Below, in pieces: positions 6,174-31,734 of a stretch of 55,848 nucleotides of DNA (within the stretch, counting starts at the first letter, position 1; each line of letters begins with the position of its first letter). The notes beneath the pieces were generated by a model. That model did not search any database. It saw only the letters and a program-made list of their open reading frames with translations, and was not told the DNA's origin. This DNA comes from Acidobacteriota bacterium. Its GTDB lineage: Bacteria > Acidobacteriota > Terriglobia > Bryobacterales > Bryobacteraceae. The position numbers and the translations under genes were made by a program. Location: NCBI GenBank assembly GCA_016871015.1, contig VFZX01000006.1, positions 1 to 55,848 on the forward strand. Direction: 5' to 3'.

Positions 6174-7724
6174 TCACGGCTGCCCACAGGTAAAGTTCGC
6201 GGCGTCGTTCACCTCCCCCGACCCCTTGTACTTCGCCACCAGCGGAAACGCGCACAACGGACGCGTCTTTTCCACCTCCCGCTGCCCCTGGTCCTTATAC
6301 CGTGTCGCAATGATCCGCTCCGGCGCGACCCCCTGCTCCACCCACCGCTCGAGCGCCGCGCCGACATCATGGTCCGCATCCTTCTGCGCGGGCGCCGCCT
6401 GGCCGAACACATTCGCGCCGGACCCGCCCGCGCAATGCTGCACTCCCGGCGCCATGAACAGCCGCACGAACTGCCGGGTCCGGTCCGCACCCAGCTTCTT
6501 CTCGACTGACTGGAAATAGTCGATCGTGTTCTGCCCCGGAATCGCCGCGTCGGACCACCCATGGTACAGGATCAGCTTCCCTCCCCTGGCCTGGAACTTC
6601 GACAAATCGGGATTCGTCGCATCGAGCGTCTTGGCCAGCCGCCGCGCGGCCTTGTAATCGCGGTCGACATCGAACGTGCGGAAATCCCAGTCCGGGTTGT
6701 TGTACACCATGTTCTTGAAGAACTGGGTGCCGAAATTGTACATCGAGCTCTTCTCGCGCTCCGGCCCCGTGATCCACGGACCCCAACCGCCAGCCTCGGC
6801 CTCTCCTCCGGGTGAAACCGCCGGGAACAGCGTGCTTCCCTTCCCCGTCAGCGGTCCCGACTGGACTTTTTTGAGCGCGGCGAGCTGCGGCGCTGTCAGG
6901 CAGGAATCCGACTCGGCCCCCTTGCATTGGAGCACCGCGGGATCGAACCGGCACGTGGCCGGATTTTCGAGAACCCCGTCTTTCACCCCATCGTTTGCGT
7001 CGCAGGCGGCACGCACCGCCGCTTGGATGGCCGGAAGCTTAGCTTGCGATATATAGGATGCGGGCTCGCTGAGCAGCGCCTTGACTCCCCACGCGGCGGA
7101 GGTCAGCAGCCGGGTCCAGTAGTTGGCCGGTGCGCCAGCGACGATCCCGTCGTAGTCTTCCGGAAACCTCTGAGCCTCCATGAGCGCCTGGCGTCCGCCA
7201 TTGGAACAGGAATTAAAATAGGACCGCTTCGGGCCCTGGCCATAATGAGCAGCGATGAGCGCCTTGGCGGCGACCGCGGTCTCATGGATCGCGCGGTAGC
7301 CAAAGTCGGCAATCTTGTCCTGCTGGTTCAGTGCCCAACGCGCGTCCTGGCCTCCAGCGCGGTGTCCGGTGTCCGTACCCGCGGTTGCATATCCGCCATT
7401 CACCACCGCGGCGAGCTGGGCGTAACCGACCGATCCCGCGTAGCCGCCGTTGCCAACCCCCTGAAACTTGCCGTTCCAGTCGGAGGCGGGCATCCAGACT
7501 TCGAGCCAGATGTTGGATCCGGCGGCGGGCTTGATGGTCCCCGACACGCGGCAGAAGTCGCGGCGGAGCCGGACCGGATTGCCCTCCGGCGGCTTAAACT
7601 CCCCGGCCTTGACCAGTGCGGCGGTTTCGATGCGGGTGTGTGGAAGGCTGAGTTTGGCGAGATCAGCGCAGGGTGTCGACGCGTAGAGCGTGACGGCGGT
7701 GGCAACGAAGAGAGCGGACTTCAT
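6174..7724 (-). CDS. Tannase/feruloyl esterase family protein
   Basis: This 516-residue protein has a Sec signal peptide (MKSALFVATAVTLYASTPCA). It shows the tannase/feruloyl esterase fold signature: nucleophile context FNSCSNGGRQALMEAQRFP, catalytic Asp in LILYHGWSDAAIPG, and catalytic His in APGVQHCAGG, where the CS/HC cysteines form the family's disulfide next to the active site. It hydrolyses ester bonds of plant phenolics such as gallate or ferulate esters; the exact substrate cannot be read. The start at 7724 was chosen for the signal peptide; ATG 7733 is an alternative. It is monocistronic and transcribed away from the ParA locus. Confidence 0.85.
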   Translation of the reverse strand: MKSALFVATAVTLYASTPCADLAKLSLPHTRIETAALVKAGEFKPPEGNPVRLRRDFCRVSGTIKPAAGSNIWLEVWMPASDWNGKFQGVGNGGYAGSVGYAQLAAVVNGGYATAGTDTGHRAGGQDARWALNQQDKIADFGYRAIHETAVAAKALIAAHYGQGPKRSYFNSCSNGGRQALMEAQRFPEDYDGIVAGAPANYWTRLLTSAAWGVKALLSEPASYISQAKLPAIQAAVRAACDANDGVKDGVLENPATCRFDPAVLQCKGAESDSCLTAPQLAALKKVQSGPLTGKGSTLFPAVSPGGEAEAGGWGPWITGPEREKSSMYNFGTQFFKNMVYNNPDWDFRTFDVDRDYKAARRLAKTLDATNPDLSKFQARGGKLILYHGWSDAAIPGQNTIDYFQSVEKKLGADRTRQFVRLFMAPGVQHCAGGSGANVFGQAAPAQKDADHDVGAALERWVEQGVAPERIIATRYKDQGQREVEKTRPLCAFPLVAKYKGSGEVNDAANFTCGQP

Positions 7725-7908
7725 GAAGTCCATTATGCACCATACCAAGCCCAAGGTGCCTGTGCCAGAACCGCGCCACAAGAAGCTCAGTTCCCCGCCC
7801 CCCATGGAACTGATCTAAACCTAAGTATATCATCGGTTTACGCCGTGTGTCCAGTGGAATCTCCGGCGAAATCCACGGGCTCCGGCGGGCCGCGTCTTGC
7901 GTATTTCT

Positions 7909-7949
7909 GGCTGTACAGCTTGACAGCCGTATAGAAAGCAGGCTATGCT
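7909..7949 (+). promoter_or_regulatory. parA promoter with overlapping palindromes
   Basis: TTGACA at 7920-7925 and TATGCT at 7944-7949 are separated by 18 nt, placing the transcription start at about 7956-7957, at the second ATG of parA. The 10-bp palindrome GCTGTACAGC (7910-7919) touches the -35 box, and GGCTGT (7909-7914) pairs with ACAGCC (7923-7928) around it. Autorepression by the partition proteins at this site is inferred, as is typical of parAB operons. The same 10-mer recurs at 8829-8838 inside the next gene. Confidence 0.6.
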
Positions 7950-7956
7950 GCTTGCA

Positions 7957-8649
7957 ATGCCCACCATCGTCTCCATCGCCAACCAGAAGGGCGGGGCAGG
8001 CAAAACCACCCTCTGCCTCAACCTCGCCGGTGGACTCGCCGAAGCCGGCTACCGCGTCCTGGTCATCGACGCCGATCCCCAGCAAAGCGCCTCGAAGTGG
8101 CGCAACCGGACCGAGGACAACGGCCTCGGCTTCGACCTGATCTCGATGCCGCGTCCAGGCCTCCACAAGGATCTGCCCAAAATGAGCCTCGACTACGAGT
8201 TGGTGCTGATCGACACGCCCCCCGGACTAGCGGACCAGCAGGGGCAGGGAAGCATCACGATCGGCGCCGTCCTCGCCAGCCAGTTCGTGCTGATTCCCGT
8301 CCAGCCCACTTTTCTCGATTACGAAGCTTCGGCCATGGTCGTGCCGCTCCTGCAGCAGGTTGCCGCCTTCCGCCCCGACATCCGGGCCCTGGTGGTGATC
8401 AACCGCAAGCCTACCACCCGCTCCCGGCTGGCGAGCGAGGCGCGCGCCGCCGCCGTGCAGTTCTTCGGATCCTCGCGCCTGCCGCTGTCGGTGCTTGAAA
8501 CCGAGATCAGCGACCGCACCGGGTTCAAGGAGTCCCCCGGCACCGGGCAGACCGTGCTCCGCTACGATCCGGCGTCCAAGGGCGCCGAGGAAATCCGCAA
8601 ATTGACCCTGGAGGTGATCGAATGTCTAAAAGCCCCCGTCCAAGCCTGA
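7957..8649 (+). CDS. parA: ParA-family partition ATPase
   Basis: The deviant Walker A motif is intact: IANQKGGAGKTTLCLNLA at residues 7-24 from this start, followed by VLVIDADPQQSASKW (Walker A') and YELVLIDTPPG (Walker B). At about 230 residues it is a short plasmid-type ParA without an N-terminal DNA-binding domain. It should move replicon copies on the nucleoid together with a centromere-binding partner. The start at 7957 fits a leaderless transcript; ATG 7945 is upstream in frame but lies inside the -10 box. Its 3' end overlaps the ribbon-helix-helix gene by 28 nt, so the two form an operon. Confidence 0.88.
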   Translation: MPTIVSIANQKGGAGKTTLCLNLAGGLAEAGYRVLVIDADPQQSASKWRNRTEDNGLGFDLISMPRPGLHKDLPKMSLDYELVLIDTPPGLADQQGQGSITIGAVLASQFVLIPVQPTFLDYEASAMVVPLLQQVAAFRPDIRALVVINRKPTTRSRLASEARAAAVQFFGSSRLPLSVLETEISDRTGFKESPGTGQTVLRYDPASKGAEEIRKLTLEVIECLKAPVQA

Positions 8650-19854: not shown

Positions 19855-20364
19855 ATGGAGCTGACGGCAGCCGGGTTCGGCGATGTGGTCCGGTCACACC
19901 AGGATATGGTGTACTCGATCGCCTGGCACTACTTCCGCGATCGTCACCAGTCTGAAGAGATCGCACAGGAGGTGTTCCTGGAGCTGCACCGGAACTTGGC
20001 CTCGATCGAGTCCGATTCACACATGGCGCACTGGCTGCGGCGGGTTACGGCCCAGCGCTGCATCGACCAGACGCGGCGGTTGCGGCTGCGTCCGCGGTCC
20101 GGGCTGGAGTCGGCGCCGGAGCCTTCCTCTCCGGCGAGCCATGCGGATCCTCTGCTGAGCAGCCTGCTGGCACGGCTGGTGGATGCGCTGCCGGACCGGG
20201 CGCGGATGGCGGTCATCTTGCGGTATCAGGAAGATATGGATCTCGGGGAGATCGCCTCGGCGATGAACATCCCGGCTGGATCGGTGAAAAGCACTCTGCA
20301 CCGGGCGCTGGCGCTGTTGCGGGGCAAGCTCGAGCGGACCACCGCGGGGAAAGGAGTTCGATGA
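19855..20364 (+). CDS. ECF RNA polymerase sigma factor
   Basis: The 169-residue protein has region 2 at about residues 5-75 (VRSHQDMVYSIAWHYFRDRHQSEEIAQEVFLEL, including the -10-recognition helix) and region 4 at about 110-160 (LPDRARMAVILRYQEDMDLGEIASAMN then GSVKSTLHRALALLR). It directs RNA polymerase to a specific regulon, probably controlled by the membrane protein encoded next. Its promoter suggests a leaderless transcript. The following genes overlap or abut, making a four-gene operon with two small secreted proteins. Confidence 0.9.
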   Translation: MELTAAGFGDVVRSHQDMVYSIAWHYFRDRHQSEEIAQEVFLELHRNLASIESDSHMAHWLRRVTAQRCIDQTRRLRLRPRSGLESAPEPSSPASHADPLLSSLLARLVDALPDRARMAVILRYQEDMDLGEIASAMNIPAGSVKSTLHRALALLRGKLERTTAGKGVR

Positions 20365-20633
20365 TGGATCTGGAACAGGAGTTGCGGCAGACTCTGGCGC
20401 GCAAGCGTGCGCCCGCCGGGTTCGCGGACCGGGTGATGGAGAAAACCCGGACCCAGGCCAGGACCCGCACGGTCCCGTGGCGATGGGCGGTGGCGGCCGC
20501 GGTGCTCGTGTGTCTGGGCGGAGGATGGTGGAAGGTGGATCAGGCGGGGCGCGAGCTCGAATCCGCGCTGCGGATCGCGTCGAGCAAGATTGATTTGGCG
20601 GAAAAGAAAGCGAGTGAGGTATTCGTACGATGA
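20361..20633 (+). CDS. Small single-pass membrane protein, putative anti-sigma partner
   Basis: Ninety residues: a charged cytoplasmic N-terminus (about 1-40), one transmembrane helix (WRWAVAAAVLVCLGGGWW) and a short exported amphipathic helix. It overlaps the sigma gene by 4 nt and the next gene by 4 nt. The position and topology fit an anti-sigma factor, but no zinc HxxxCxxC motif is present, so the role is inferred from context. ATG 20364 is a possible alternative start. Confidence 0.65.
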   Translation: MMDLEQELRQTLARKRAPAGFADRVMEKTRTQARTRTVPWRWAVAAAVLVCLGGGWWKVDQAGRELESALRIASSKIDLAEKKASEVFVR

Positions 20634-21193
20634 AATATTTACTGATGCTGACCGTGGCGGGTGGAGCCATGGCGCAGGAATTTCAGAACCTGATCGACTG
20701 GTCAAAGTTTGAGTCCAAGGCCGACGAGACCGTGAACGTCAACCTGGACGGGATGATGCTCCAGTTGGCCAAGGGGTTTGTGGGGGGCAAGGACGGCCCG
20801 CCCGGGGTCCAGGGCGTGGTTCAAGGTCTGCGCGGGGTGTTTGTGCGCTCGTTCAAGTTCGACCGGGTGGGCGGGTATGCGATCGAGGACGTGAACGCGC
20901 TGCGGGCCAAGGTCACCTCGATGCAGTACCAGGCGATCGTCGACGTGCGAAGCAACAAAGGCAGCGGGGACAACACCAGTATCTATGTGAAGACCAACGG
21001 CGAGGTGATCGACGGGCTCGTGGTGATCGCGGCCGAGCCGCGCGAGCTGACCGTGGTCCACCTGGCGGGCAACATCGATCCGTCGGCGCTGCAGCAATTG
21101 GGCGGGAAGTTCGGCATCCCCAATGTCCACCTGCAGAGCGGGACGCCCAAGCCGGCGGCCAAGAAGCAGGGAAAGGATGAAGAGGATGAGTAG
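20630..21193 (+). CDS. DUF4252-domain secreted protein
   Basis: This 187-residue protein has a signal peptide (MKYLLMLTVAGGAMAQ), a DUF4252-like domain (residues about 20-165, with LRGVFVRSFKFDRVGGY, YQAIVDVR and PRELTVVHLAGNIDPSALQQL) and a lysine/glutamate-rich tail. DUF4252 proteins often sit beside ECF sigma factors and their function is unknown. It overlaps the upstream membrane-protein gene by 4 nt and the next gene by 8 nt. Confidence 0.75.
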   Translation: MKYLLMLTVAGGAMAQEFQNLIDWSKFESKADETVNVNLDGMMLQLAKGFVGGKDGPPGVQGVVQGLRGVFVRSFKFDRVGGYAIEDVNALRAKVTSMQYQAIVDVRSNKGSGDNTSIYVKTNGEVIDGLVVIAAEPRELTVVHLAGNIDPSALQQLGGKFGIPNVHLQSGTPKPAAKKQGKDEEDE

Positions 21194-21644
21194 AGTACTG
21201 GCCGCGGCCATGCTTCTCACGGTGCCGCTTCTGGCGGTTGAGGGTCCCGAAGACGATCTGGACTTCGACCGCGCGGTCAGGGAGATTACGGCCCACTCCG
21301 GAAAGAAGCCGTTGCGGATCCCGCTGTTGGGCCTGGTGGGTTTGGTGTCGTATGCAGGGGCCCCAGCCGGGGCCAAGGGACTGCGGGTCGCGGTGTTTGA
21401 AGACGTGAACGGCGCGGCGGAGGCGGTGGTGCGTGCGGGCGCTGGAAAACCGGTGGCCGAGGTCCGGAGCCGGCGCGGCAACCATGTGCGGATCTTTGCC
21501 CGCGATTCAGGCAAGTGGGTGAAGCTGCTGATCGTGGCGGACAGCGGACGGCAGTCGGTGGTGTGCGGACTCTCCTTGCGGCCCGACCGGTTCGCACGGT
21601 TCCTCGAAACCAAAACGATGGACCGGCGTCAGAGTACAATATGA
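21186..21644 (+). CDS. Secreted hypothetical protein of the sigma operon
   Basis: About 152 residues with a signal peptide (MSRVLAAAMLLTVPLLAVEG) and a compact alpha/beta domain, including VRSRRGNHVRIFARDSGKWV and LIVADSGRQSVVCGL. It may be a diverged DUF4252-like partner, since both proteins end their domain with a self-association-like beta strand pair, but this is a weak resemblance. It starts inside the end of the DUF4252 gene; an alternative ATG is at 21177. Fourth gene of the sigma operon. Confidence 0.65.
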   Translation: MSRVLAAAMLLTVPLLAVEGPEDDLDFDRAVREITAHSGKKPLRIPLLGLVGLVSYAGAPAGAKGLRVAVFEDVNGAAEAVVRAGAGKPVAEVRSRRGNHVRIFARDSGKWVKLLIVADSGRQSVVCGLSLRPDRFARFLETKTMDRRQSTI

Positions 21645-21646
21645 AC

Positions 21647-22504
21647 ATGTGGCGTGGATTGTCCGTCGCGCTCGCTGTTGCCGCCGTTTCCTGGGGCCAG
21701 GAGGGCTTTGGATCGCTTTTTACGAAGGCTCCGAAGCACATTGATGACGCCCTGCGGGAGCGGGTCAACTTTTTCTACGAGCGGCAGATGGCGGGCAAGT
21801 CGCGCCAGGCGGACGCGGCCGTCCATGAGGACAGCAAGGATCTTTTCTTCGAGGCTCCGAAGCTGCAAATGCGCAGCTTCAAGATCGTGTCGATCAACTA
21901 CGAGGAGAACTACCAGCGGGCGAAAGTCGTCATCGACATGGACACTGATTTCCATTTTGTAGGGTTCGGAACCATGAAGGTGAACCGGCCGGCAGGTTCG
22001 ACGTGGAAGTTCGATCAGGGCCAGTGGTGGTGGTTTGTCGAGAACTCTTCCTCGAAGGACAGTCCGTGGGGACTTCTTTCGCCCGGTCCCGGACAGGCGC
22101 AGGCTGACTTCAACAAGTACATCTCGAGTAACGAGATGACGGTCGACAAGCTTCGGTCGAAGGTCAAGGTGGATAAGGACAAGATCGAGCTTCCGAGCGA
22201 CCGGGACGCGGCGGCTGAGGTCATCATCACTAACGACTTCGACGGCCCGGTGACAGTGTCGATGCAGGCCGATGACTTTGGTGGCGTGGTAATTAATCTC
22301 GAAGGGAGCCGGATCGAGCGCGGCCAGACCGCCAAGCTGACCGTTACCAGCCGCCCGGTGGGACCAGCGAAGAAGCCGGACCTGCGCGTGTTGCTGATCG
22401 TTGAGCCGATCGGCAAGCACATCCCAATCCTGGTGACGTTCGCCTATCCCCAGTTCAACGAGCCTAAACCCGGCACCGTGGTCCCGGTTCCCGGCAAGAA
22501 GTGA
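21647..22504 (+). CDS. Secreted hypothetical protein
   Basis: A 285-residue protein with a signal peptide (MWRGLSVALAVAAVSWGQ). Its N-terminal half has DALRERVNFFYERQMAGKSRQ and HEDSKDLFFEAPK, suggesting an NTF2-like or cystatin-like helix plus sheet. The C-terminal half (about 185-285) reads like an immunoglobulin-type beta domain. No family is recognised. TACAAT at 21635-21640 lies 6 nt before ATG 21647, so a separate leaderless promoter is likely. ATG 21641 is two codons upstream in frame. Confidence 0.7.
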   Translation: MWRGLSVALAVAAVSWGQEGFGSLFTKAPKHIDDALRERVNFFYERQMAGKSRQADAAVHEDSKDLFFEAPKLQMRSFKIVSINYEENYQRAKVVIDMDTDFHFVGFGTMKVNRPAGSTWKFDQGQWWWFVENSSSKDSPWGLLSPGPGQAQADFNKYISSNEMTVDKLRSKVKVDKDKIELPSDRDAAAEVIITNDFDGPVTVSMQADDFGGVVINLEGSRIERGQTAKLTVTSRPVGPAKKPDLRVLLIVEPIGKHIPILVTFAYPQFNEPKPGTVVPVPGKK

Positions 22505-22530
22505 ACCGGCGGCACTTCCGCGGGGTTTTG

Positions 22531-22836
22531 ATGTCGAAAACAGAGCCCACAACCATCTGCCAGACTCCCACTCCAGGCAAGAGGCCAACACGCATCGCGC
22601 AATGGAAGTATGAGGCTGTGCGAAAAGCGATCCGGAAATCGGTCCCACGCCGGAAGGAGGGGATCGAATTCCAGGAGCTGCCGGAGCTTGTGGCCAGAGC
22701 GCTGCCGCCCGGCGAACAGGCGCGGCTGGGCTCGGTGCTGTGGTACACGGTGACCGTCAAGCTGCACATGGAAGTGACCGGCGAGCTGGAGCGCGTCCCC
22801 GGTGCGTCACCGCAGCGTGTCCGGCTCAAACGATAA
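22531..22836 (+). CDS. DUF6958-like small protein
   Basis: This 101-residue basic protein contains KYEAVRKAIRKSVPRRKEGI, LPELVARALPPGEQARLGSV and WYTVTVKLHMEVTGELERV. It matches my memory of the DUF6958 family, a small alpha/winged-helix-like protein of unknown function with a conserved LGSVxWYTxTVKL motif and a final basic segment. It lies 26 nt after the preceding gene; GGGG five nt upstream may serve as a ribosome-binding site. No signal peptide, so cytoplasmic. Confidence 0.7.
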   Translation: MSKTEPTTICQTPTPGKRPTRIAQWKYEAVRKAIRKSVPRRKEGIEFQELPELVARALPPGEQARLGSVLWYTVTVKLHMEVTGELERVPGASPQRVRLKR

Positions 22837-22890
22837 TGGTTCTCCGCCGCAGCCTGACGGTGCGCTAGAGTACGATTAGCGGGTTCAGGC

Positions 22891-24048
22891 GTGGCTGCGG
22901 TAAAGATTCAAGCGAGGGAACAACGCCAGCGGCGGGCCGCGGTCAATGTGATCGCGTTCGGCACGCTGATCACGCTTGTCTATTTCGGGCGCGATTTCCT
23001 GGTTACGCTGTTCACCGCAGTGACGATTGGATTCATTCTGGAGCCCTTCGTCGACCTGGTGATGCGGCTCCGGCTCCCGCGCGCCGTGGCGAGCTTTCTG
23101 GTGTGCTCGATCGCGCTCACGCTGCTTTACCTGTTGGGCGTCGGCGCCTACACGCAGATCGCCGGACTGATCGAGGACATGCCCGCGTACAGCGCGCGCG
23201 TCAACGAGCTTTCGTCCGAGGTGGTGAAGAACCTTGAGGAAGCCGAGCGCGGGGTGCTGGCGCTGTTCACGCCCAAGCGGGTCCGGGATGTGCAAAACCC
23301 GGCGGCCGCGAATCCCGCGGCGCGCAAGCGGCGTGCGCCCGAGCCCCCGCCCCCGCCCCAGCCGGAAACGCCGCAGATCCAGGAAGTGAGGATTCATGCC
23401 GAAGGATCGCCGCTGGTGAATTTCGTCTATCAGCACTGGGAGCGCATCTACCAGGTGCTGCTGCTGGCGAGCTTTATTCCGTTCCTGGTTTACTTCATGC
23501 TCAGTTGGCGCGATCACATGCGCCGCCACTACCTGCAGCTCTTCCACGGGCAGGGCCGCCACGCCGCCGGCCGGAGCTGGCAGGGGATCGCCGACATGGC
23601 CCGGGCTTACGTGGTGGGCAATTTCGTCCTCGGCGTGATCCTGACCCTGTTCAGCGGACTGTTCTTCTGGCTGTTCCGGATCCCATACTTCCTCCTGGTT
23701 GCTCCGTTGAGTGGATTCCTGAGCCTGATCCCCTACGTTGGACTCCCGCTCGCGTTGATCCCGCCGTTATTCGCGGCTCTACCGGTGTACAACAAGGTGG
23801 GTGCCTACCTGATCATTGCGGCGGTCGTCGGGGGACTGCACCTGATCGCGATGAACCTGTTGTATCCATTGCTGGTGGGTTCGCGGGTTCACCTCAATCC
23901 GCTGGCGGTGACCATCGCGCTGATGTTCTGGGGCAGTGTCTGGGGTGCAATGGGACTAATCTTTGCAATCCCGATCACCGCGGGGATTAAGGCGGTGCTG
24001 GATAACGTGCCGGAGCTCGAGGCATACGGAAAGTTGCTTGGGGATTAG
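22891..24048 (+). CDS. AI-2E/PerM-family permease
   Basis: The 385-residue inner-membrane protein has the PF01594 layout: paired N-terminal helices (FGTLITLVYFGRDFLVTLF and FLVCSIALTLLYLLGVGAY), a cytoplasmic or periplasmic loop with a proline-rich insert (EPPPPPQPETPQ, about residue 150), then four to five helices including GFLSLIPYVGLPLALIPPL. The family covers AI-2 exporters, sodium/proton antiporters and uncharacterised transporters; substrate cannot be inferred. It starts with GTG; TACGAT lies 14 nt upstream. Confidence 0.85.
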   Translation: MAAVKIQAREQRQRRAAVNVIAFGTLITLVYFGRDFLVTLFTAVTIGFILEPFVDLVMRLRLPRAVASFLVCSIALTLLYLLGVGAYTQIAGLIEDMPAYSARVNELSSEVVKNLEEAERGVLALFTPKRVRDVQNPAAANPAARKRRAPEPPPPPQPETPQIQEVRIHAEGSPLVNFVYQHWERIYQVLLLASFIPFLVYFMLSWRDHMRRHYLQLFHGQGRHAAGRSWQGIADMARAYVVGNFVLGVILTLFSGLFFWLFRIPYFLLVAPLSGFLSLIPYVGLPLALIPPLFAALPVYNKVGAYLIIAAVVGGLHLIAMNLLYPLLVGSRVHLNPLAVTIALMFWGSVWGAMGLIFAIPITAGIKAVLDNVPELEAYGKLLGD

Positions 24049-24186
24049 TACAGTTAGAGACCCGGCGTGGCGTTGACCACTCCCACGAGCTGCGGGTGGC
24101 CGGAGTACACCAGACTCCTCTCGGTGTGCAAGGGGAAAGTGACGGCGTCCCGATCCCGTGTCCCAGGCCGCGTTATCATGATGTGC

Positions 24187-25503
24187 GTGCGTCTCATTCC
24201 CGCGTTGTTGACCGCTGCCATCGCGTTGGCGGAGTCGCGTGAGGACGAGGTCAAGCCGCTGCTGGTGATGATCAAGGCGCAATGGGAGGATCGCGCGCAG
24301 GACCCGCCACAGAACGGAGCCGGGATCATCTTCGGGCACCAGTCCGGCCGGCTCTACATCGCGACCGCAAACCACGTTGTCCGCTACGGACCCCGCGAGG
24401 CGAAGAAGATCGACCTGCTGCTGAAGTGGCTTCCCGGCGAGACCCGCACCGCCGCGCTCACCCGTCACTTCGACTCCGCGCTCGACCTCGCCGTGCTCAT
24501 CATCACGGGCGCGCCTGACCTCGCGGTTCCGGCGCTGCCCTTCAACGCGCTTGGTAATTCAGGGAGCCTCACGCGCCGGGGGCCAGTAAAGGTTGAGACC
24601 ATGGGCTATCCGGGTGGCAAGGAGTGGTTCGCGCGGGCCGCGCCGGACGTGGTCTCGGGGGGCGACCGTGACACTGTGCGGTTCGACGCGGCCTGGATCG
24701 GACCTGGATATTCAGGCGGCGGACTGTTCACCGACCGGTGGGAGATCGTCGGCATGATCCGCCGAGACAACCCGCCTGAGGGCGAGGCGGTCCGGATCGA
24801 GCGGGTGATCGAGCGCCTAAAGGAGTGGGGCTATCCGGTGGGGCTGTCGAAGGATGAGCCCGTGGCCGCCTCGCCACCCAAAGTTTCGCCTGACAGGCCT
24901 CTGGTGAAGAAGCAACGCGCTGGAGCAGTATGGATCCGCCCGGGGACGTTCCTGATGGGTTGCTCCCCGGGCGGGTTCTGTCTTCCCAGCGAGGCGAATC
25001 CCCCAGTGCGAACCACGATTGCGAAAGGCTTTTGGATGAACGAGACCGAGGTCAACCAGACGGAGTATGAGCGGCTGATCGGCTCCAATCCGAGCCAGTT
25101 TCGCGGCCCCAGCAATCCGGTCGAAAACGTTACCTGGCATCAAGCCCAAGCCTACTGCGCCAAGGCTGGAGGCAGGCTGCCCATCTCGGCGGAATGGGAA
25201 TATGCGGCGCGTGCCGGAACCACGGGAACGGCGTACGGCGACTTGAAAGAGATCGCCTGGGGAAGCCACCACAATACCAGGCAGACGCAGAGAGTCCGGC
25301 AGCTGAAGCCGAATTCGTTCGGCTTGTACGACATGATGGGGAACGTCTGGGAGTGGACCGCAACCGACTTCGATGCCTTGAACAAGGAGGTGCGTGGAGG
25401 CTATTGGGGAAGCGCCGTCCTATCATTGCGGGTGTCGCTACGCGGCAGGCGGGCTCCAACGGACCACGACAACACGCTCGGGTTCCGCTGTGTGTGGGAC
25501 TGA
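24187..25503 (+). CDS. Secreted trypsin-like protease fused to a formylglycine-generating-enzyme-like domain
   Basis: 438 residues from GTG 24187: signal peptide (MRLIPALLTAAIALA), then a trypsin-like domain with His63 (IATANHVV), Asp100 (SALDLAVL) and Ser176 (GPGYSGGGLF). From about 250 there is an FGE/SUMF1-fold domain (WIRPGTFLMGCSPGG, MNETEVNQTEYERLIG, NPVENVTWHQAQAYC, GRLPISAEWEYAARAG, MMGNVWEWTATD, LGFRCVWD). The two catalytic cysteines of true FGE are absent: the RGGYWG region carries Ser, Leu and Val instead. The domain is therefore probably a binding module. TATCAT ends 7 nt before GTG 24187; ATG 24181 is an alternative. First of four genes. Confidence 0.8.
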   Translation: MRLIPALLTAAIALAESREDEVKPLLVMIKAQWEDRAQDPPQNGAGIIFGHQSGRLYIATANHVVRYGPREAKKIDLLLKWLPGETRTAALTRHFDSALDLAVLIITGAPDLAVPALPFNALGNSGSLTRRGPVKVETMGYPGGKEWFARAAPDVVSGGDRDTVRFDAAWIGPGYSGGGLFTDRWEIVGMIRRDNPPEGEAVRIERVIERLKEWGYPVGLSKDEPVAASPPKVSPDRPLVKKQRAGAVWIRPGTFLMGCSPGGFCLPSEANPPVRTTIAKGFWMNETEVNQTEYERLIGSNPSQFRGPSNPVENVTWHQAQAYCAKAGGRLPISAEWEYAARAGTTGTAYGDLKEIAWGSHHNTRQTQRVRQLKPNSFGLYDMMGNVWEWTATDFDALNKEVRGGYWGSAVLSLRVSLRGRRAPTDHDNTLGFRCVWD

Positions 25504-25548
25504 GATCGATCGAAATCCGATAAACTGAACTCGATCACCCGGGCCCCC

Positions 25549-26598
25549 ATGCCGCCAACACGCTCACTCCTGCCTATCTTCCTCATCGCGGCCTGCTGGG
25601 CACAGCAGCCTCCGGCTCTGCACGAGGACCGCCTCGTCATGCTCACCGCCGAGTTCGACGAAGGACCTGCACAGAACGGCGCCGGCGTCATCTTCGGCTC
25701 GGCCGCCGGCCGCATCTACATCGCCACCGCCAACCACGTGATCCGCTCCGGACCCAACACTGCGAAATCCGTCAAGGCATTCGTCAAGGGCCGTCCGGGC
25801 GAGTCATTCGCGGTCAAGATCCTCGAACACTCTGATCCCATCCTCGACCTCGCTGTTGCCGCCATCACCGATCCCGACGCCCTCGGACAAAAACCCGCCG
25901 CGCGTATCCTCGGCGACTCGGCCACGCTGAAGCGGGGCGACAAGGTCTGGTCCACCGGCTATCCACAGAGTCGCCGGTGGTATTCGCGGCCAGCGCCCGA
26001 CCACATCCAGCGCAGCGCGGCGGACTCCATCCGGTTCGACTCGCCGTTCATTTCGGCCGGCTACTCAGGCGGCGGCCTGTTCGACGAGCGCGGACACCTC
26101 GTCGGAATCATCAAGCAGGACGCACCGCCGGAAGGCGTCGCGATTCCGATCGAGCGGGTGCTCGAACGGCTGCGCGAGTGGGGCTATCCGATTGAGATCG
26201 AGCGCGCCGCCGTCGAGCAGTCAGCCGCCCAGCCCCGGACGCTCGTGGTGCGGCTCCTGCGCGTCATCGTCAAAGAGGACGGGTCGAGTGGCGCCACGAA
26301 CTGGGACTTCCGCGCTACCGTGAACGGCAATGTCCTGCTTGACTGGCGGGAGAAGTCGTTCGACGATGACGCGGGCCGCAACGTCTATGTCCCAAATCAG
26401 GCCGAGACGAAACTCATTGAGGCGCCCGCCGGCCAACCGGTCCGCCTGGTGATCACCGGCGACCACTCGCACGGCGAGCGGCTCCCCATCAGCAAGGACA
26501 CCACCCTCGCCCCCGGAGCTGAAGTGGAGGTCCCCGTCTCCACCGCCCGGAGCCGCAAGGGAGACTTCATTTTCGTCTTCTCGGTTGTGCCAAAATGA
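25549..26598 (+). CDS. Secreted trypsin-like protease, paralogue of the upstream protease domain
   Basis: 349 residues with a possible lipoprotein leader (LLPIFLIAACWAQQ). The trypsin-like domain aligns almost residue for residue with the upstream gene: His63 (IATANHVI), Asp100 (PILDLAVA) and Ser173 (GYSGGGLF), ending with ERLREWGYPI. A different C-terminal beta domain (about 225-349) replaces the FGE-like module and may bind ligand or wall polymer. It overlaps the next gene by 4 nt. Gene duplication followed by swapping of the C-terminal module is the simplest reading. Confidence 0.8.
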   Translation: MPPTRSLLPIFLIAACWAQQPPALHEDRLVMLTAEFDEGPAQNGAGVIFGSAAGRIYIATANHVIRSGPNTAKSVKAFVKGRPGESFAVKILEHSDPILDLAVAAITDPDALGQKPAARILGDSATLKRGDKVWSTGYPQSRRWYSRPAPDHIQRSAADSIRFDSPFISAGYSGGGLFDERGHLVGIIKQDAPPEGVAIPIERVLERLREWGYPIEIERAAVEQSAAQPRTLVVRLLRVIVKEDGSSGATNWDFRATVNGNVLLDWREKSFDDDAGRNVYVPNQAETKLIEAPAGQPVRLVITGDHSHGERLPISKDTTLAPGAEVEVPVSTARSRKGDFIFVFSVVPK

Positions 26599-27317
26599 GC
26601 GCGAAGATGACCGTCTCGCGCATTCTCGCTCTCCTGTCCGTCACGCTCCCCGCGTTCCAGCAGGACCGTTGCGCTGAGTTCGGCCTGAAACGCGCGGGTG
26701 GCGTGAACGGCTACGACTGGCGCGACAACCGGTGCGAGGGTGAGTACATCCGTGACGTTGCTAGCTCGGCGGATCTGCAACTGGTCTCCTTCGGCGCGCC
26801 GGTACCGGCCTCCGCGTTAACTGGCGCGAGTCCCATCAGCCTCGCCTGGGCAACAGCGGGCGCTGCGTTGCGCATCCGCGGCGAAAGCCTCCGCTCCCGC
26901 CACTACTACCGCATGGATGCCAAGCCCGGCGCGGTGAATTCGTTTCAGTGGCCCACCCGTGTGCTCAGCCAATTCAAGCTCCAGGACCGGGAACTGGGTA
27001 TCGTGGCCTGGACCGGAGCCGGGAGTGCAGTGCGCTATGTTCCGATAGAGGTCAACGGATCCAAGACCGTCGCCATTCTGGTGCGGCCTGCCGCCGAGTT
27101 GAGCGAAGTGTACATGACGTTGCGCGCTGAGCCCTCGGGCACGGTCGTCGCGCGCGACAAGGCGCTGGGCTTGAACGTCTACCCGGCGGGGCGGGGATTC
27201 CAGGTTGCGCTCCCAAAGCTCCCCAGACCCGGACTGTACCGCCTCAGTCTGGCGGCGACGTTGCGTGACGGAGGATCAGCCAACGGCGTCTACGTCCTCC
27301 AGCTTCCGGCGAACTGA
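26595..27317 (+). CDS. Secreted hypothetical protein of the protease operon
   Basis: 240 residues with a signal peptide (SRILALLSVTLPAFQQ) and two cysteines near the N-terminus (DRCAEFG, NRCEGEY). The remainder is beta-rich with SLAWATAGAALRIRGE and PGLYRLSLAATLRDGG, as in immunoglobulin-like or carbohydrate-binding sandwiches. No family is recognised. It overlaps the upstream protease gene by 4 nt and ends 2 nt before the next, so it is translated together with both. Confidence 0.7.
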   Translation: MSAKMTVSRILALLSVTLPAFQQDRCAEFGLKRAGGVNGYDWRDNRCEGEYIRDVASSADLQLVSFGAPVPASALTGASPISLAWATAGAALRIRGESLRSRHYYRMDAKPGAVNSFQWPTRVLSQFKLQDRELGIVAWTGAGSAVRYVPIEVNGSKTVAILVRPAAELSEVYMTLRAEPSGTVVARDKALGLNVYPAGRGFQVALPKLPRPGLYRLSLAATLRDGGSANGVYVLQLPAN

Positions 27318-27319
27318 TT

Positions 27320-28375
27320 ATGGACCAACAGTCCGCGGCTGCCCGGCTTCGCCAGCACCTTGCCAACCGCGCTCGGGAATACGCAGAGTCCGCACTGAAA
27401 CAGGACGGGCAGGCTCCCTTGGCGGACGTGCGGAAACTGGAAGCGCTCTCCCGACTCGCCGCGATGGCCGAACCCGCCGCGCCGAAGCCCAGCCACCGCG
27501 GCATCGCGATCGTCTTCGCGATTCTCTCGCTCTCGGTGGTCTCCCTGATGCTGTTTAAGCGGGCTACGAAGACTGCCGTGGAGCTCGAGGCCTTGGTGAC
27601 CGCGGTCCGGTTCAGAATAACAGAGCCGGTGCAATCGAGGAGCCTGCTTGTGAAATCGATCTCGGTCAGCGGGGCCAACATCTCGGATCCGGATGAGGTG
27701 CTGGGCCGCGCACCGGTGGGCGCTCGAATCGAAGCAGACGGCGGCGCGATCACCGTGCAACATATCAAGCTCTCCAACGCCACCGTGGTGACGCTCGAAC
27801 GCGATTCGCAGTCCGCCCTGCAGTTCGACATCAACGGCGAAGGCGCGGTGATCGAGGTAAGCCTGAGTGGAAAACTGCGGGTCTCGGGCCGGCCAGCCGA
27901 GTTCAAGATCCCGCGCTCACTGTCGTTCACCACGGGCGCTTCCCCGGCCGACATCCGCTTCGTCTTCCCCGGCGACGCGGATGCCGATCTATTCCGCCAG
28001 TGGCCCATCGATTCCCTGTCTACCTTCGAGGCCGACGAGTCGCGAACGCGCCGGGTATCGTCGATCAAGTCTGGCGCCATTTTCTTCGAGGAACTGAACA
28101 GCCAGGAGCGGAAGCTCCGCGAGGCAGAGCACATCCAGTTCGGCGCGGTGGATGGGCGCATCCGGACCGCGCGCTTTACCAAAGGCGAGATTGCCCTGCG
28201 ATTTGACGGCACGATCCAAGGTCTGACGACCGGCGCTGGCGATCCCCGTCCGCTGATGCCCACCTGGCTGGACCTGGCCCGCGCGAACCAGCCGCTGGTC
28301 CTGCTGTGGACCACGGCGGCCTACATCATCGGAGTCCTGTTCGCGATTCTCAAGTGGCTCGACTTCAACGTCTGA
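27320..28375 (+). CDS. Two-helix membrane protein with large extracytoplasmic domain
   Basis: The 351-residue protein has an N-terminal cytoplasmic segment of about 58 residues and a transmembrane helix (GIAIVFAILSLSVVSLMLF). A beta-rich exported domain follows (about 80-320, with GAVIEVSLSGKLRVSGRP), then a C-terminal helix (LVLLWTTAAYIIGVLFAIL). No family is recognised. It is the last gene of the protease operon and would anchor or sense the secreted partners at the membrane; that role is inferred from topology and order. Confidence 0.7.
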   Translation: MDQQSAAARLRQHLANRAREYAESALKQDGQAPLADVRKLEALSRLAAMAEPAAPKPSHRGIAIVFAILSLSVVSLMLFKRATKTAVELEALVTAVRFRITEPVQSRSLLVKSISVSGANISDPDEVLGRAPVGARIEADGGAITVQHIKLSNATVVTLERDSQSALQFDINGEGAVIEVSLSGKLRVSGRPAEFKIPRSLSFTTGASPADIRFVFPGDADADLFRQWPIDSLSTFEADESRTRRVSSIKSGAIFFEELNSQERKLREAEHIQFGAVDGRIRTARFTKGEIALRFDGTIQGLTTGAGDPRPLMPTWLDLARANQPLVLLWTTAAYIIGVLFAILKWLDFNV

Positions 28376-28410
28376 CCGCCCCCGCCCGTCCGGTGTTATC
28401 ATCTTTTTTC

Positions 28411-29553
28411 ATGAACCGCAGACAAGCCCTCCTCACCCTCGCGGGCGCCGCTGTTCCCGCATGGGCGCGCGCCAAAGAGTACATCGTCTACGTAGGCACC
28501 TACACAAACGGCAACAAGAGCAAAGGCATCCACGCCTTCCGCATGAACGTGAAGACGGGAGAGCTCAGTCCGGTGGGGCTGGTGGGCGAGGTCACGAATC
28601 CTTCGTTCCTGACGATCCATCCCAACGGCCGGACCCTTTACGCCGTGAGCGAGATCGCCAATTATCAGGGACAGCGCAGTGGCGCGGTGACCGGATTCCA
28701 GATCGACCGCAATACCGGCATGCTCACTAAGCTGAACACCTCGGCCACCAAAGGTGACGGCGCCTGCCATCTCGTGGTCGATAAGACCGGCAAGAATGTC
28801 GTCGTCGCCAACTACGGCGGAGGCAGCGTGGCCTCGATTCCGATCAAGGACGACGCGGGCAATCTGGGCGATGCGTCCGCGTTCATTCAGCACAAGGGAA
28901 GCTCGGTCGACAACCGCCGCCAGATGAATCCGCACGCGCACTCGGTGAACATCTCCGCCGACAACCGCTTCGTCATGGTCGCCGACCTCGGACTTGACCA
29001 GGTGCTCGTCTATCAGCTCGATCCGGCCCAGGGATCGCTCACGCCGCACAATCCGCCGTTCGCCAAGGTGACGCCCGGCGGCGGACCGCGCCATTTCACC
29101 TTCCATCCCAAGGGCAAGTTCGCTTACACGAACCAGGAGATGAAGTCGGCGGTGACCGCATTCCGCTGGAACGCGGCCTCCGGTGTGCTCGACGAGATCC
29201 AGGTGATCTCGACGCTTCCACAGGACTACACTGGAACCGGCAACTCCACCGCCGAGATCCTGTGCCATCCCTCGGGCAAGTACGTCTACTGCTCCAATCG
29301 CGGGCACGACTCGATCGCCGTGTTCAAGGTCCACAAGGACGGCAAGCTCACGCGCATCGGCAACGTCTCGACCCAGGGCCGCACGCCGCGCAACTTCAAC
29401 ATCGACCCGTCCGGGCGCTGGCTCATCGCTGCCAACCAGGCCACCGACAGCATTGTCCTGTTCCGGATCGGCAAGGACGGCAACCTCACCCCGGCTGGCC
29501 AGAAGCTGGATGTCGGCGCGCCGGTGTGCGTCAAGTTCCTGCAAGTGGCCTGA
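28411..29553 (+). CDS. Lactonase family (Pgl-type seven-bladed beta-propeller), Tat-exported
   Basis: 380 residues: a twin-arginine leader (MNRRQALLTLAGAAVPAWARA) followed by seven WD-like repeats of the PF10282 lactonase family, with YIVYVGTYTNGNKSKGIHAF, PNGRTLYAVSEI, DKTGKNVVVANYGGGSV, HPHxHS-type HAHSVNISAD and DGNLTPAGQKLDVGAPVCV. Cytoplasmic relatives hydrolyse 6-phosphogluconolactone; the export signal argues for an extracytoplasmic lactone instead. TATCAT (28397-28402) lies 8 nt before the ATG. Confidence 0.88.
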   Translation: MNRRQALLTLAGAAVPAWARAKEYIVYVGTYTNGNKSKGIHAFRMNVKTGELSPVGLVGEVTNPSFLTIHPNGRTLYAVSEIANYQGQRSGAVTGFQIDRNTGMLTKLNTSATKGDGACHLVVDKTGKNVVVANYGGGSVASIPIKDDAGNLGDASAFIQHKGSSVDNRRQMNPHAHSVNISADNRFVMVADLGLDQVLVYQLDPAQGSLTPHNPPFAKVTPGGGPRHFTFHPKGKFAYTNQEMKSAVTAFRWNAASGVLDEIQVISTLPQDYTGTGNSTAEILCHPSGKYVYCSNRGHDSIAVFKVHKDGKLTRIGNVSTQGRTPRNFNIDPSGRWLIAANQATDSIVLFRIGKDGNLTPAGQKLDVGAPVCVKFLQVA

Positions 29554-29712: not shown

Positions 29713-30084
29713 ATGAATCGTAGGAAGTTCAACAGTGTCATCGGCGCCGCGGCTGCCGGATTGATGGCGGCGGGGTCCGCGCGGGTGCTGGTGGCGCAGG
29801 CCAAGGTGGAAAAGCACATCTGCAAGGGCAAGAACACGTGCAAAGGGCAGGGAGGCTGCAAGTCCGGCGACAATGGCTGTGCGGGCAAGAACACCTGCAA
29901 GGGCAAGGGCGGATGCGCCACGGTGAAGCACGGCTGCGCCGGCCAGAATGAATGCAAAGGCCTCGGTGGCTGCAAATCCGGCGATAAGGGTTGCGCGGGC
30001 AAGAACACGTGCAAGGGCAAGGGCGGCTGCGCGGTTCCGATGCAGCATAGCCGGCTGCGCGTGCGTCGCGAAGTCTTGGCGTAA
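29713..30084 (+). CDS. bufA2: BufA2-like bufferin precursor, 12-Cys repeat RiPP with Tat-like leader
   Basis: The 123-residue product has a leader with a twin-arginine motif (MNRRKFNSVIGAAAAGLMAA) and, from about residue 37, four 19-residue repeats, each with three cysteines in the pattern CxGxNxCKGxGGC plus a 6-residue spacer (12 Cys in all). A basic tail without Cys follows. Bufferin precursors are made by MNIO enzymes that convert cysteines to thiooxazoles and act as periplasmic copper-binding peptides. The MNIO and DUF2063 genes follow directly. AAGGAGA at 29701-29707 is a good ribosome-binding site. Assignment to the A2 subfamily is from memory. Confidence 0.82.
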   Translation: MNRRKFNSVIGAAAAGLMAAGSARVLVAQAKVEKHICKGKNTCKGQGGCKSGDNGCAGKNTCKGKGGCATVKHGCAGQNECKGLGGCKSGDKGCAGKNTCKGKGGCAVPMQHSRLRVRREVLA

Positions 30085-30091
30085 GGTGGGA

Positions 30092-30126
30092 GTGAGCGGC
30101 GGAGAAGCGAAGACTCCGCCGCTCAC
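30092..30126 (+). promoter_or_regulatory. Intercistronic hairpin between bufferin precursor and MNIO gene
   Basis: GTGAGCGGCGGAG (30092-30104) pairs perfectly with CTCCGCCGCTCAC (30114-30126) around a 9-nt loop, a 13-bp stem with 10 G-C pairs. No T-run follows, so it is not a classical terminator. It ends 3-12 nt before the two candidate bufB starts and would cover the ribosome-binding region. An effect on the precursor-to-enzyme ratio is inferred. Confidence 0.7.
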
Positions 30127-30137
30127 CTGTGACTCCC

Positions 30138-30983
30138 ATGGCGAACCGATGGGGCTATCCGGATCTGGGCTTCGGTGTCGGGCTCCGGACGGTCCACTTC
30201 CCCTACATCCTGAACCAGCATCCCCGCGTCGACTGGTTCGAAATTCTGTCGGAGAACTATATGGACACCGGGGGGCGTCCGCTCTATGTGCTCGACCAGG
30301 TGGCCGAGCGCTACCCCGTCGTCCTGCACGGTGTCTCGATGTCGGTGGGTAGTACGGATCCAGTGAACTTCGAATACCTGCGCAAGCTGAAGTCGCTTGC
30401 ACAGCGCATCAACGCGCGCTGGGTGTCGGATCACCTGTGCTGGACCGGGGTCGCCGGGCTGAACGTCCACGATCTGCTGCCGATGCCCTACACGGATGAG
30501 TCCCTGCGGCATGTGGTGGAGCGGATCCGCGTGATCTCTGATTTCCTCGAACGTCCGTTGGTGCTCGAGAATCCCTCGACCTACCTCGAGTTCCACGTGT
30601 CTACTTGGAACGAGTGGGATTTCATGGCCGAAATGGCCGGACAGGCCAACTGCGGATTGCTGCTTGACGTGAACAACGTCTACGTAAGCGCGTTCAATCA
30701 CGGATGGGACGCGAACGCCTACATCGACCGCATCCCCGCGGACCGCGTGGTGCAGATCCACCTGGCCGGGCACACCCATAAAGGGACGCACATTCTCGAC
30801 ACCCACTCGGATCACGTGGTGGATCCCGTGTGGGAGCTCTACCGGCGTGTCTACCAGCGCATGGGCGGAATCGCGACGCTGCTTGAGTGGGACGAAGACG
30901 TGCCGGATTTTGAAACCGTGCATGCCGAAGCGCTGAAGGCGCGGCGGTATCGTTCTTCGGGAGAAATCCGTGAGGCAGCCTGA
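30138..30983 (+). CDS. bufB: MNIO (DUF692) bufferin-modifying iron oxidase
   Basis: 281 residues of TIM-barrel type with the multinuclear non-heme iron oxidase signatures: LGFGVGLRTVHF, WFEILSENYMD, VVLHGVSMSVGS, WVSDHLCWTG, RPLVLENPSTYLEF, LLLDVNNVYVSAFNHG, QIHLAGH, LDTHSDHVVDPVW and LLEWDEDVP. The conserved His, Asp, Asn and Glu side chains bind two or three irons. Known relatives use O2 to rearrange cysteines of a precursor peptide. Start may instead be GTG 30129. It overlaps the DUF2063 gene by 14 nt. Confidence 0.88.
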   Translation: MANRWGYPDLGFGVGLRTVHFPYILNQHPRVDWFEILSENYMDTGGRPLYVLDQVAERYPVVLHGVSMSVGSTDPVNFEYLRKLKSLAQRINARWVSDHLCWTGVAGLNVHDLLPMPYTDESLRHVVERIRVISDFLERPLVLENPSTYLEFHVSTWNEWDFMAEMAGQANCGLLLDVNNVYVSAFNHGWDANAYIDRIPADRVVQIHLAGHTHKGTHILDTHSDHVVDPVWELYRRVYQRMGGIATLLEWDEDVPDFETVHAEALKARRYRSSGEIREAA

Positions 30984-31734
30984 CCTGGGCGCGATACAAC
31001 GTTGGATGCAGGCGGTGATCCTGGAGCCGGGTCCGTGCGGAGATGCGAAAGCGCGCCGCATCGTCCGCCCCTCGGCCGCGATGACGCCCGGGGAGAGGCT
31101 GGAAGTGTATCGCGGCATGTACGGCGCGCGTCTGGCGGAGGCGCTGGAGGCGGACTTCCCCATGCTCGCCGGACTGCTGGGCGAGGAGTTGTTCGCCGAG
31201 TTCGCGAGCCTCTACATTTGCGAGCATCCATCGCGCTCGTACACGCTGAACGATCTCGGGCGCAATGTTCCGGCGCTCCTGGCCAAGCTGGATGGATTGC
31301 CGTCACCGGCTCTGTCCGTCGATCTGGCGCGATTCGAGCTGACGGTGTCGGAAGTGTTCGATGAGGAGGAATCCCCGCGGCTCACGACGGATCAGTTGGC
31401 CGCGGTGGATCCGGAGAGTTGGGGCGTGGCGCGGCTGCGTCCCATTCGCGCGTTCCGATTGCTTGAGCTGGGCTATCCAGTGCACCTGTACAAACAACGG
31501 CCCTCCAAACGGGCGCGCCGGACATGGCTCGCCGTGTACCGCCGTGACTACGCTGTGACCTGGCACTCGCTCACGCGGCCCGCGTATGGCGTGCTGTCGC
31601 GCCTTGCCGAGGGGGAACCGATCGGTGCTGTACTCGCCGGGATCCGCAACCGGGATCGCGTGTTTGCCTGGTTCCAGGAGTGGAACCAGGAGGGCTTCTT
31701 CGAAGCGATCGAGGTCCAGTCAACGGCGCGCTGA
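30970..31734 (+). CDS. bufC: DUF2063 family MNIO partner (putative DNA-binding domain)
   Basis: 254 residues. The N-terminal half is the DUF2063 domain (RWMQAVILEP, MTPGERLEVYRGMYGARLAEALEADFPMLAGLLGEELF, RSYTLNDLGRNVPALLAKL). The C-terminal half, DLARFELTVSEVFDEEES onward, is the partner region that helps present the precursor to MNIO. Despite the database name, these proteins act as RiPP recognition partners in bufferin-type systems. GTG start at 30970 inside the end of bufB (14-nt overlap) indicates translational coupling. Confidence 0.85.
   Translation: MRQPDLGAIQRWMQAVILEPGPCGDAKARRIVRPSAAMTPGERLEVYRGMYGARLAEALEADFPMLAGLLGEELFAEFASLYICEHPSRSYTLNDLGRNVPALLAKLDGLPSPALSVDLARFELTVSEVFDEEESPRLTTDQLAAVDPESWGVARLRPIRAFRLLELGYPVHLYKQRPSKRARRTWLAVYRRDYAVTWHSLTRPAYGVLSRLAEGEPIGAVLAGIRNRDRVFAWFQEWNQEGFFEAIEVQSTAR

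Follow-up and report, generated by a model that had tools for sequence, protein, structure and literature searches.

A run of four co-directional genes in the genome of a soil bacterium assigned to the Acidobacteriota raises the question of what two trypsin-like proteases with different C-terminal parts might be doing next to two proteins that belong to no known family. The genes, numbered 1 to 4 here (Table 1), lie at 24181-28375 on the + strand of contig VFZX01000006.1 (assembly GCA_016871015.1; 8.66 Mb, 720 contigs, completeness 99.74%, contamination 2.01%). The window, as we call the whole stretch analysed, covers positions 1 to 55,848 of this contig. An initial annotation, made from the letters of the sequence, had described four open reading frames (ORFs) joined by overlaps or short gaps, and this is how they were found: 45 nt separate genes 1 and 2, genes 2 and 3 overlap by 4 nt and 2 nt separate genes 3 and 4. 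The start codons are guesses; for gene 1 the candidates are ATG at 24178 or 24181 and GTG at 24187. Our answer to the question begins with the observation that three parts, namely gene 3, gene 4 and a trypsin-like protease, are conserved as a set and diverge together, whereas the C-terminus of the protease is exchanged between loci.

When 150 genomes of the order were searched with the single sequences of gene 3 and, independently, of gene 4, both searches led to the same five genomes, and the two matches were neighbours each time. With alignments of 11 members for each family, a set of 257 genomes of the order contained gene 4 in 10 and gene 3 in eight, all of which also had gene 4; the gene 4 copies of the two additional genomes (G638 and G088) are partial. 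In the class to which genome G515 belongs, gene 4 matches came from 4 of 148 genomes, one of them judged false, and the first gene 4 profile, built from four members, gave 2 of 396 in a sample of the phylum. A gene 4 profile gave 11 named loci, all from metagenome-assembled genomes, under the titles Acidobacteriota, Candidatus Brocadia, Anaerolineae, Rhodocyclaceae and Burkholderiales.

A scan with three profiles (gene 3, gene 4 and the protease, the last built from 11 members) provided 22 gene 4 loci. One match was left out (L103 in genome G652, E 1.5e-4; by eye its ORF is another protein), as were the duplicates L056 (of L084), L104 (of L057) and L064-L066 (of L036, L035 and L037). Because the loci were found via gene 4, or in the first five genomes via gene 3 and gene 4, the share of loci with a protease and, less strictly, the share with gene 3 are results of the scan. 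Gene 3 adjoins gene 4 in 20 of the 22 loci and a trypsin-like protease lies nearby in 19. Pfam was also used to score 18 of these 19 protease loci (G097 was left out): 17 lay above the Trypsin_2 cut-off, and the protease of L081 lay below it (22.1 vs 27.6 bits). That these genes are grouped is more than chance, since separate searches pointed to the same five of 150 genomes and 20 of the 22 loci have gene 3 next to gene 4. The pairwise distances of gene 4, gene 3 and the trypsin domain correlate in the 16 loci in which all three are undisrupted (r 0.91, 0.88 and 0.88), so the three parts mostly travel together. The Mantel p of 2e-4 for each correlation is the floor of 5000 permutations, and shared ancestry of the hosts adds to the correlation. 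The flanks of 21 loci, taken as far as 6 kb if the contig was long enough, had no family of neighbouring genes common to at least three loci; four matches were common to two loci each.

The usual arrangement, on one strand, is gene 3, gene 4, protease (16 of 22 loci). The window departs from it in that its two proteases are upstream of gene 3 and gene 4; other exceptions are L100 (gene 4, gene 3, protease) and L083 (the end of gene 4, then protease). The expectation that the order of all four genes might be conserved was borne out in part: the gene set is kept far outside the strain, but the order protease, protease, gene 3, gene 4 was seen only in the window. It might be thought from this deviating order, and from two loci (L037 and L057) that hold genes 3 and 4 without a protease nearby, that two unrelated gene pairs have come to lie together by accident. 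Set against a protease in 19 of 22 loci and the correlated divergence of the parts, such an accident is hardly credible.

Genes 3 and 4 could not be matched convincingly in Pfam (up to E 0.1), NCBIfam, PADLOC, PHROGs or the sequences in PDB, and judged by these comparisons they are two new protein families. The weak matches that did appear were not credited: Cupin_2 (E 0.028) and BT_MCC_alpha (E 0.043) for members of the gene 4 family, DUF2523 (E 0.053) for a member of the gene 3 family, and PDB sequence rows at E 0.28 and 0.49. The alignment of the gene 3 family contains an invariant C and invariant CEG positions. AlphaFold2 (AF2) models were made for both families, each resting on 11 sequences. 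The model of gene 3 is a beta-sandwich with a predicted local confidence (pLDDT) of 85.2 and a predicted template-modelling score (pTM) of 0.80. Its best fold comparisons were fibronectin type III (FN3) domains (Z 5.8 over 89 residues, root-mean-square deviation 2.9), below the level which the tool regards as safe, and are only suggestive of an FN3-like fold.

The gene 4 product had been described as a two-helix membrane protein, and two hydrophobic segments were indeed present at residues 61-79 and 326-344. In the AF2 model (pLDDT 79.7, pTM 0.66) the N-terminus is helical, and a long beta-rich stretch lies between a helix that spans residues 60-79 and a last one at 325-346. The motif R(S/P)LMPTWL precedes the second helix. 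Both helices exceeded 1.5 by hydropathy in 16 of 18 gene 4 proteins; the protein of G558 lacks the second, and in the remaining case, a fusion described next, the first reached 1.39. In L100 (6954-9035) a CHAT domain (PF12770, E 1e-29) precedes gene 4 in one ORF. We take both termini of gene 4 to be cytoplasmic, and the positive-inside rule leans weakly towards an N-terminus on the inside; the CHAT domain, on the N-terminal side of gene 4, would then be cytoplasmic as well. Among the weak and scattered rows of the structure comparison was a low-scoring one that would make gene 4 similar to bacterial gasdermins. It was not credited, and the comparison does not exclude families that are absent from its match lists.

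The proteases of the window are clearly paralogous, as had been proposed from the sequence. Both products match Trypsin_2 (gene 1, residues 46-192, E 5.9e-14; gene 2, residues 44-187, E 6.2e-16), their trypsin regions are 47% identical, and the His-Asp-Ser triad is intact in both with the same spacing of the catalytic residues (His63/Asp100/Ser176 counted from GTG 24187, and His63/Asp100/Ser173 from ATG 25549). Among 25 proteases the catalytic His and the serine in SGG are kept without exception and the Asp in 23, the exceptions being G045 T3 and G665b. Signal-like N-termini, judged by eye, suggest that the window proteases are probably exported, and the N-termini of the proteases in general resemble signal peptides by the same judgement.

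That the two proteases carry different C-terminal modules also held, with the addition that the module of gene 1, overlooked at first, is a domain of the formylglycine-generating enzyme (FGE) type with a C-type-lectin fold (FGE-sulfatase, PF03781, residues 248-439, E 2.9e-36). Its best match among PDB sequences is variable protein 1 of Treponema denticola (2y3c, E 9.3e-21), a variable protein of a diversity-generating retroelement (DGR). Catalytic formylglycine-generating enzymes have an active-site cysteine pair near the C-terminus. When gene 1 was aligned with sulfatase modifying factor 1, the RC position read RV, in a low-scoring piece of the alignment, and the other cysteine lay outside the alignment. 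The C-terminal domain of gene 2 had no match in Pfam or among PDB sequences and was present in 2 of 150 genomes, its own and, as a weak match (E 1.7e-4), G057.

Elsewhere the C-termini are of many kinds. Pfam typing of 20 proteases gave FGE for window gene 1 and for one of the three proteases of G045, RCC1 for L059 and L060, RCC1 with TPR for L058, NHL for L063, ankyrin for L061 and L083, TPR for L038, CsgG with PEGA for L100 and, below the cut-off, Sel1 for L102. The protease of L062 reads TPR-trypsin-ankyrin-PDZ. Regions without an accepted Pfam match occurred in L067, L056, L081, L082, L099 (two), L101 and window gene 2. By alignment, the remaining proteases of G045, both proteases of G097 and a protein on contig C299 of the same genome as the window are also trypsin-FGE proteins. 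Several proteases share a locus in the window (two), in G045 (three) and on contig 14 of G711 (two).

The trypsin domain matches the structures of HtrA and DegQ when compared with PDB sequences, gene 2 also being HtrA-like in this comparison, and the HtrA, DegP and DegS models matched below their curated cut-offs. DegS is a membrane-linked sensor protease that signals by proteolysis. The module could be an envelope-stress or quality-control protease of the DegS/HtrA type, with the repeats and FGE domains selecting misfolded or particular substrates, gene 3 acting as a co-chaperone, and gene 4 serving as a scaffold in the membrane or as a substrate under regulation; no adversary would be sensed. 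HtrA and DegS proper have a C-terminal PDZ domain. Pfam found none in genes 1 and 2, and the PDZ domain of L062, which would suit such a role, is the only one in the 20 proteases scanned. The scattered occurrence (10 of the 257 genomes in the order), the differing neighbours, the exchange of C-termini and the rewriting of some FGE versions by DGRs (see below) are unlike housekeeping, and we regard quality control as an unlikely explanation.

FGE domains link the module to DGRs. The genome of the window has a DGR on contig C5 (L015 6099-10598, - strand) with a reverse transcriptase (RVT_1), bAvd (PF22296, E 3.2e-19), an FGE variable protein, and template and variable repeats. The C299 protein, the third trypsin-FGE protein of this genome, shares 59.5% identity with gene 1 in the portion that precedes the variable part. 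Over 86 nt it differs from the C5 template at 16 positions, all 16 at adenines (of which there are 27) and none at the 59 other positions (hypergeometric 1.3e-10, an optimistic value in that the scan leaves adenine mismatches unpenalised). Beyond the 86-nt match a 3-nt insertion and one G-to-T change relative to the template were seen by eye. In the identical scan the proteins of G045 and G097 that passed the threshold had 6 to 14 non-adenine mismatches to the C5 template. By its adenine-confined differences the C299 protein is a trans target of the C5 DGR; neither gene 3 nor gene 4 is present on its contig of 10 kb. A second case comes from G097, which has a protease directly after gene 4 and a copy of it on the opposite strand. 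Where the two have identical residues, synonymous changes number 1 in 25 in the variable segment and 116 in 225 upstream of it (Fisher p 2e-6), and 19 of 20 differences in the variable segment are at codon positions 1 and 2, a pattern that fits the mark of copying from one template. G045 also contains, at L046 3794-14247 (- strand), a DGR-type reverse transcriptase and bAvd beside three Trypsin_2-NACHT-FGE proteins, which are cytoplasmic-looking cousins of the trypsin-FGE proteases.

FGE-fold and propeller modules are able to bind sugars or proteins, and many hydrolases are secreted by soil bacteria. For these reasons the protease might be suspected of a nutritional or adhesive role at the surface, where it would degrade or bind extracellular polymers through exchangeable binding modules. 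For digestion one would not expect a dedicated two-pass membrane partner, a CHAT fusion or DGR hypermutation, and we consider this role very unlikely.

The reading we prefer, tentatively and with somewhat less than an even chance of being correct, is a sensor-protease module outside the cytoplasmic membrane in which a ligand triggers a protease and gene 4 carries the signal inward. Both the protease and gene 3 would be exported, and the C-terminal module of the protease (the lectin-fold FGE domain in gene 1, the domain without a family match in gene 2) would bind the ligand. Gene 4 would keep a complex of protease and gene 3 at the membrane and also receive the signal: ligand binding would activate or release the protease, which would cut or rearrange gene 4, or perhaps gene 3, and the change in gene 4 would pass through the helices to its cytoplasmic N-terminus. 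The output would likewise be cytoplasmic. In one locus it may be the CHAT caspase-like protease built into gene 4, as the single fusion suggests; elsewhere the short helical N-terminus would presumably have a partner for this. The two proteases of the window, which differ in their C-terminal modules, would share one pair of genes 3 and 4. Because binding domains are exchanged and DGRs rewrite some of the FGE versions, the ligands may be molecules of biological adversaries, such as phages, predators or competitors, and the purpose of the module would probably be conflict or defence. Both suggestions of the initial annotation, a surface protease sensor or a conflict/defence device, would stand on this reading.

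Several observations weigh against this proposal. The HtrA-like trypsin domain would also suit housekeeping. The orientation of gene 4 leans only weakly to one side: basic residues before the first helix are more numerous than after it in 10 of 17 proteins, equal in 4 and fewer in 3, and window gene 4 is one of these three. Comparison of its fold gave no convincing match, the best (Z 4.6) being on the N-terminal helices, and the CHAT fusion was seen at a single locus. Three of the 22 loci have no protease nearby (L037, L057 and L080, the last being a gene 4 remnant only), and collections of phages, plasmids and viruses contained no match to gene 4. The DGR connection has similar gaps. The cis variable protein of C5 has a variable repeat one base longer than the template and, by eye, an ORF without the usual end; it appears out of frame at its end and may be broken or mis-assembled. 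For G097 no template was found, and the only reverse transcriptase match in this 94% complete assembly is 30% identical. The three tandem trypsin-FGE genes that follow gene 4 in G045 have segments that differ synonymously (5 of 24 and 7 of 19) without the copying mark, and again no template was found, although the genome has a DGR-type reverse transcriptase (62% identical). A degenerate-pattern search for the template of G045 or G097 gave six matches, namely five known trypsin-FGE genes and one more place in G045, none of them an unmutated template. Gene 1 of the window was rejected as a current DGR target. No template was found for its C-terminal segment: no match exceeded the scan threshold in seven loci, nor did the C5 template match the window, and a genome-wide search listed no other place matching the segment, though the assembly may lack a template. 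Compared with the variable segment of C299, that of gene 1 has synonymous changes in 11 of 18, without the copying mark.

Gene 4 is moreover broken or partial in four loci (L038, L067, L080 and L083), partly perhaps through assembly error. Decay of this kind counts against the preferred reading and would suit a secreted toxin, that is, an offensive protease aimed at competitors via a variable binding domain, with genes 3 and 4 as immunity or release factors; the probable export, the variable C-terminus and the several proteases at some loci would suit it too. Against a toxin, it is the likely binding domains that vary and the protease domain that stays constant, and CHAT on gene 4 in L100 suits inward signalling. 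We regard a toxin as quite unlikely.

How does the module compare with systems that have been described? Of known proteases, DegS/HtrA has the closest catalytic domain by sequence, but the module proteases are mostly without PDZ and have exchangeable C-termini, and the DegS pathway is not known to include genes 3 and 4. Variable protein 1 of T. denticola resembles the FGE domain of gene 1 (see above); we know of no trypsin domain in this protein and of no partners like genes 3 and 4. PADLOC gave partial matches to trypsin or ankyrin parts only, and none to genes 3 and 4 (E up to 0.01).

Another parallel is offered by the DGR-diversified putative antigen sensors of multicellular bacteria, for which the accessible parts of Dore et al. 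2024 (PMC10907252) describe FGE/C-type-lectin sensors that are rewritten and trypsin- and CHAT-type protease effectors. The trans targeting of a trypsin-FGE protein by the DGR in the genome of the window is in keeping with that account. According to the same parts of the paper, the core there is a STAND NTPase or MoxR-vWA-VMAP, the peptidase is often on a neighbouring protein and localisation is mixed (PMC10907252). The present module, by contrast, showed no NTPase, combines protease and sensor in a single chain, and has genes 3 and 4 in addition. A Pfam scan of ten window proteins (19855-29553) gave no NTPase domain, which sets the locus apart from the MoxR-vWA-VMAP/STAND ternary systems. The EACC1 system, as far as the accessible text of PMC7159879 goes, similarly has an unvarying membrane component next to a protease whose C-terminal domain comes in many alternative kinds, but has one transmembrane (TM) helix and a caspase-type protease where this module has a two-TM beta-rich protein, a trypsin-type protease and a third protein. 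Judged on these features, the locus falls outside that system, gene 4 having two hydrophobic helices and the proteases being Trypsin_2. The NucA-trypsin system, in the same portion of text (Kaur et al. 2020, PMC7159879), shares a trypsin-like peptidase core, sometimes in several copies, but is defined by the endonuclease NucA; beside genes 3 and 4 no third partner recurs, NucA itself not having been searched for. Taken together, the accessible parts of four papers (PMC10907252, PMC7159879, PMC8195603, PMC7517822) deal with FGE sensors diversified by DGRs, with effectors of the trypsin and caspase types and with systems of a constant component plus a variable domain; the trypsin or caspase systems in them have NTPase, NucA or single-TM EACC1 cores and no genes like 3 and 4. 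The initial annotation knew of no described system with this gene order, and neither the libraries nor the literature searched supplied a characterised one. We found no description of the three-gene set in the open-licence literature, most subscription papers and preprints lying outside the search. Because sensors, effectors and the constant-plus-variable design have been described and genes 3 and 4 have not, the module is apparently an undescribed one of a modular-recognition type already known, to which two new families are added.

A bolder version, which we think rather doubtful, would see in the module a bacterial equivalent of NLR-type immunity that operates outside the cytoplasm. Invaders would be recognised before they enter, by exported trypsin-like proteases whose recognition domains are interchangeable and sometimes hypermutated by retroelements, and a new two-pass transducer would set off an effector in the cytoplasm, which in one lineage would be CHAT. 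If right, two new families and a dedicated transmembrane route would stand behind a kind of modular recognition that has mostly been described with NTPase cores, and hypermutated lectin-fold sensors would be tied to a protease outside the membrane. Whether bacteria sense invaders at the envelope by diversified receptors would then become a question testable with three genes.

Table 1. Features of the protease module in the window
Feature	Position	Strand	Basis or remark
Gene 1, trypsin-like (HtrA-like) protease with C-terminal FGE/C-type-lectin domain, probably exported	24181..25503	+	Pfam, triad, signal-like N-terminus by eye
Trypsin_2 domain of gene 1	24316..24756	+	Pfam
FGE-sulfatase (C-type-lectin fold) domain of gene 1	24922..25497	+	Pfam; PDB sequence match
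Segment of gene 1 equivalent to the DGR variable repeat of related FGE proteins	25393..25503	+	Not a current copy of the own-genome template
Gene 2, trypsin-like protease, C-terminal domain without known family, probably exported	25549..26598	+	Pfam; PDB sequences
C-terminal domain of gene 2	26221..26598	+	Without Pfam or PDB sequence match
Gene 3, predicted beta-sandwich protein, signal-like N-terminus, new family	26595..27317	+	Alignment, AF2 model
Gene 4, predicted two-pass membrane protein, beta-rich middle, new family	27320..28375	+	Alignment, AF2 model, hydropathy
First predicted transmembrane helix of gene 4	27500..27556	+	Hydropathy
Second predicted transmembrane helix of gene 4	28295..28351	+	Hydropathy

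The module is flanked upstream by a transporter of the AI-2E family (22891-24048) and downstream by a 7-bladed lactonase (28411-29553), both assigned by Pfam and both without a match in the flanks of other loci. In G638, of the same genus, L080 contains a broken remnant of gene 4 (7660-8302) with neither gene 3 nor a protease in the 18 kb examined, and its flanks have no clear kinship to those of the window. Farther upstream in the window (19855-21193) are an ECF-type (extracytoplasmic function) sigma factor, a short one-helix protein that by eye may be its anti-sigma factor, and a DUF4252 protein (Pfam). Downstream, at 29713-31734, a cysteine-rich repeat protein is followed by two genes that look to us like a DUF692/MNIO enzyme and its partner, a likeness to the bufferin type of modified-peptide operon.

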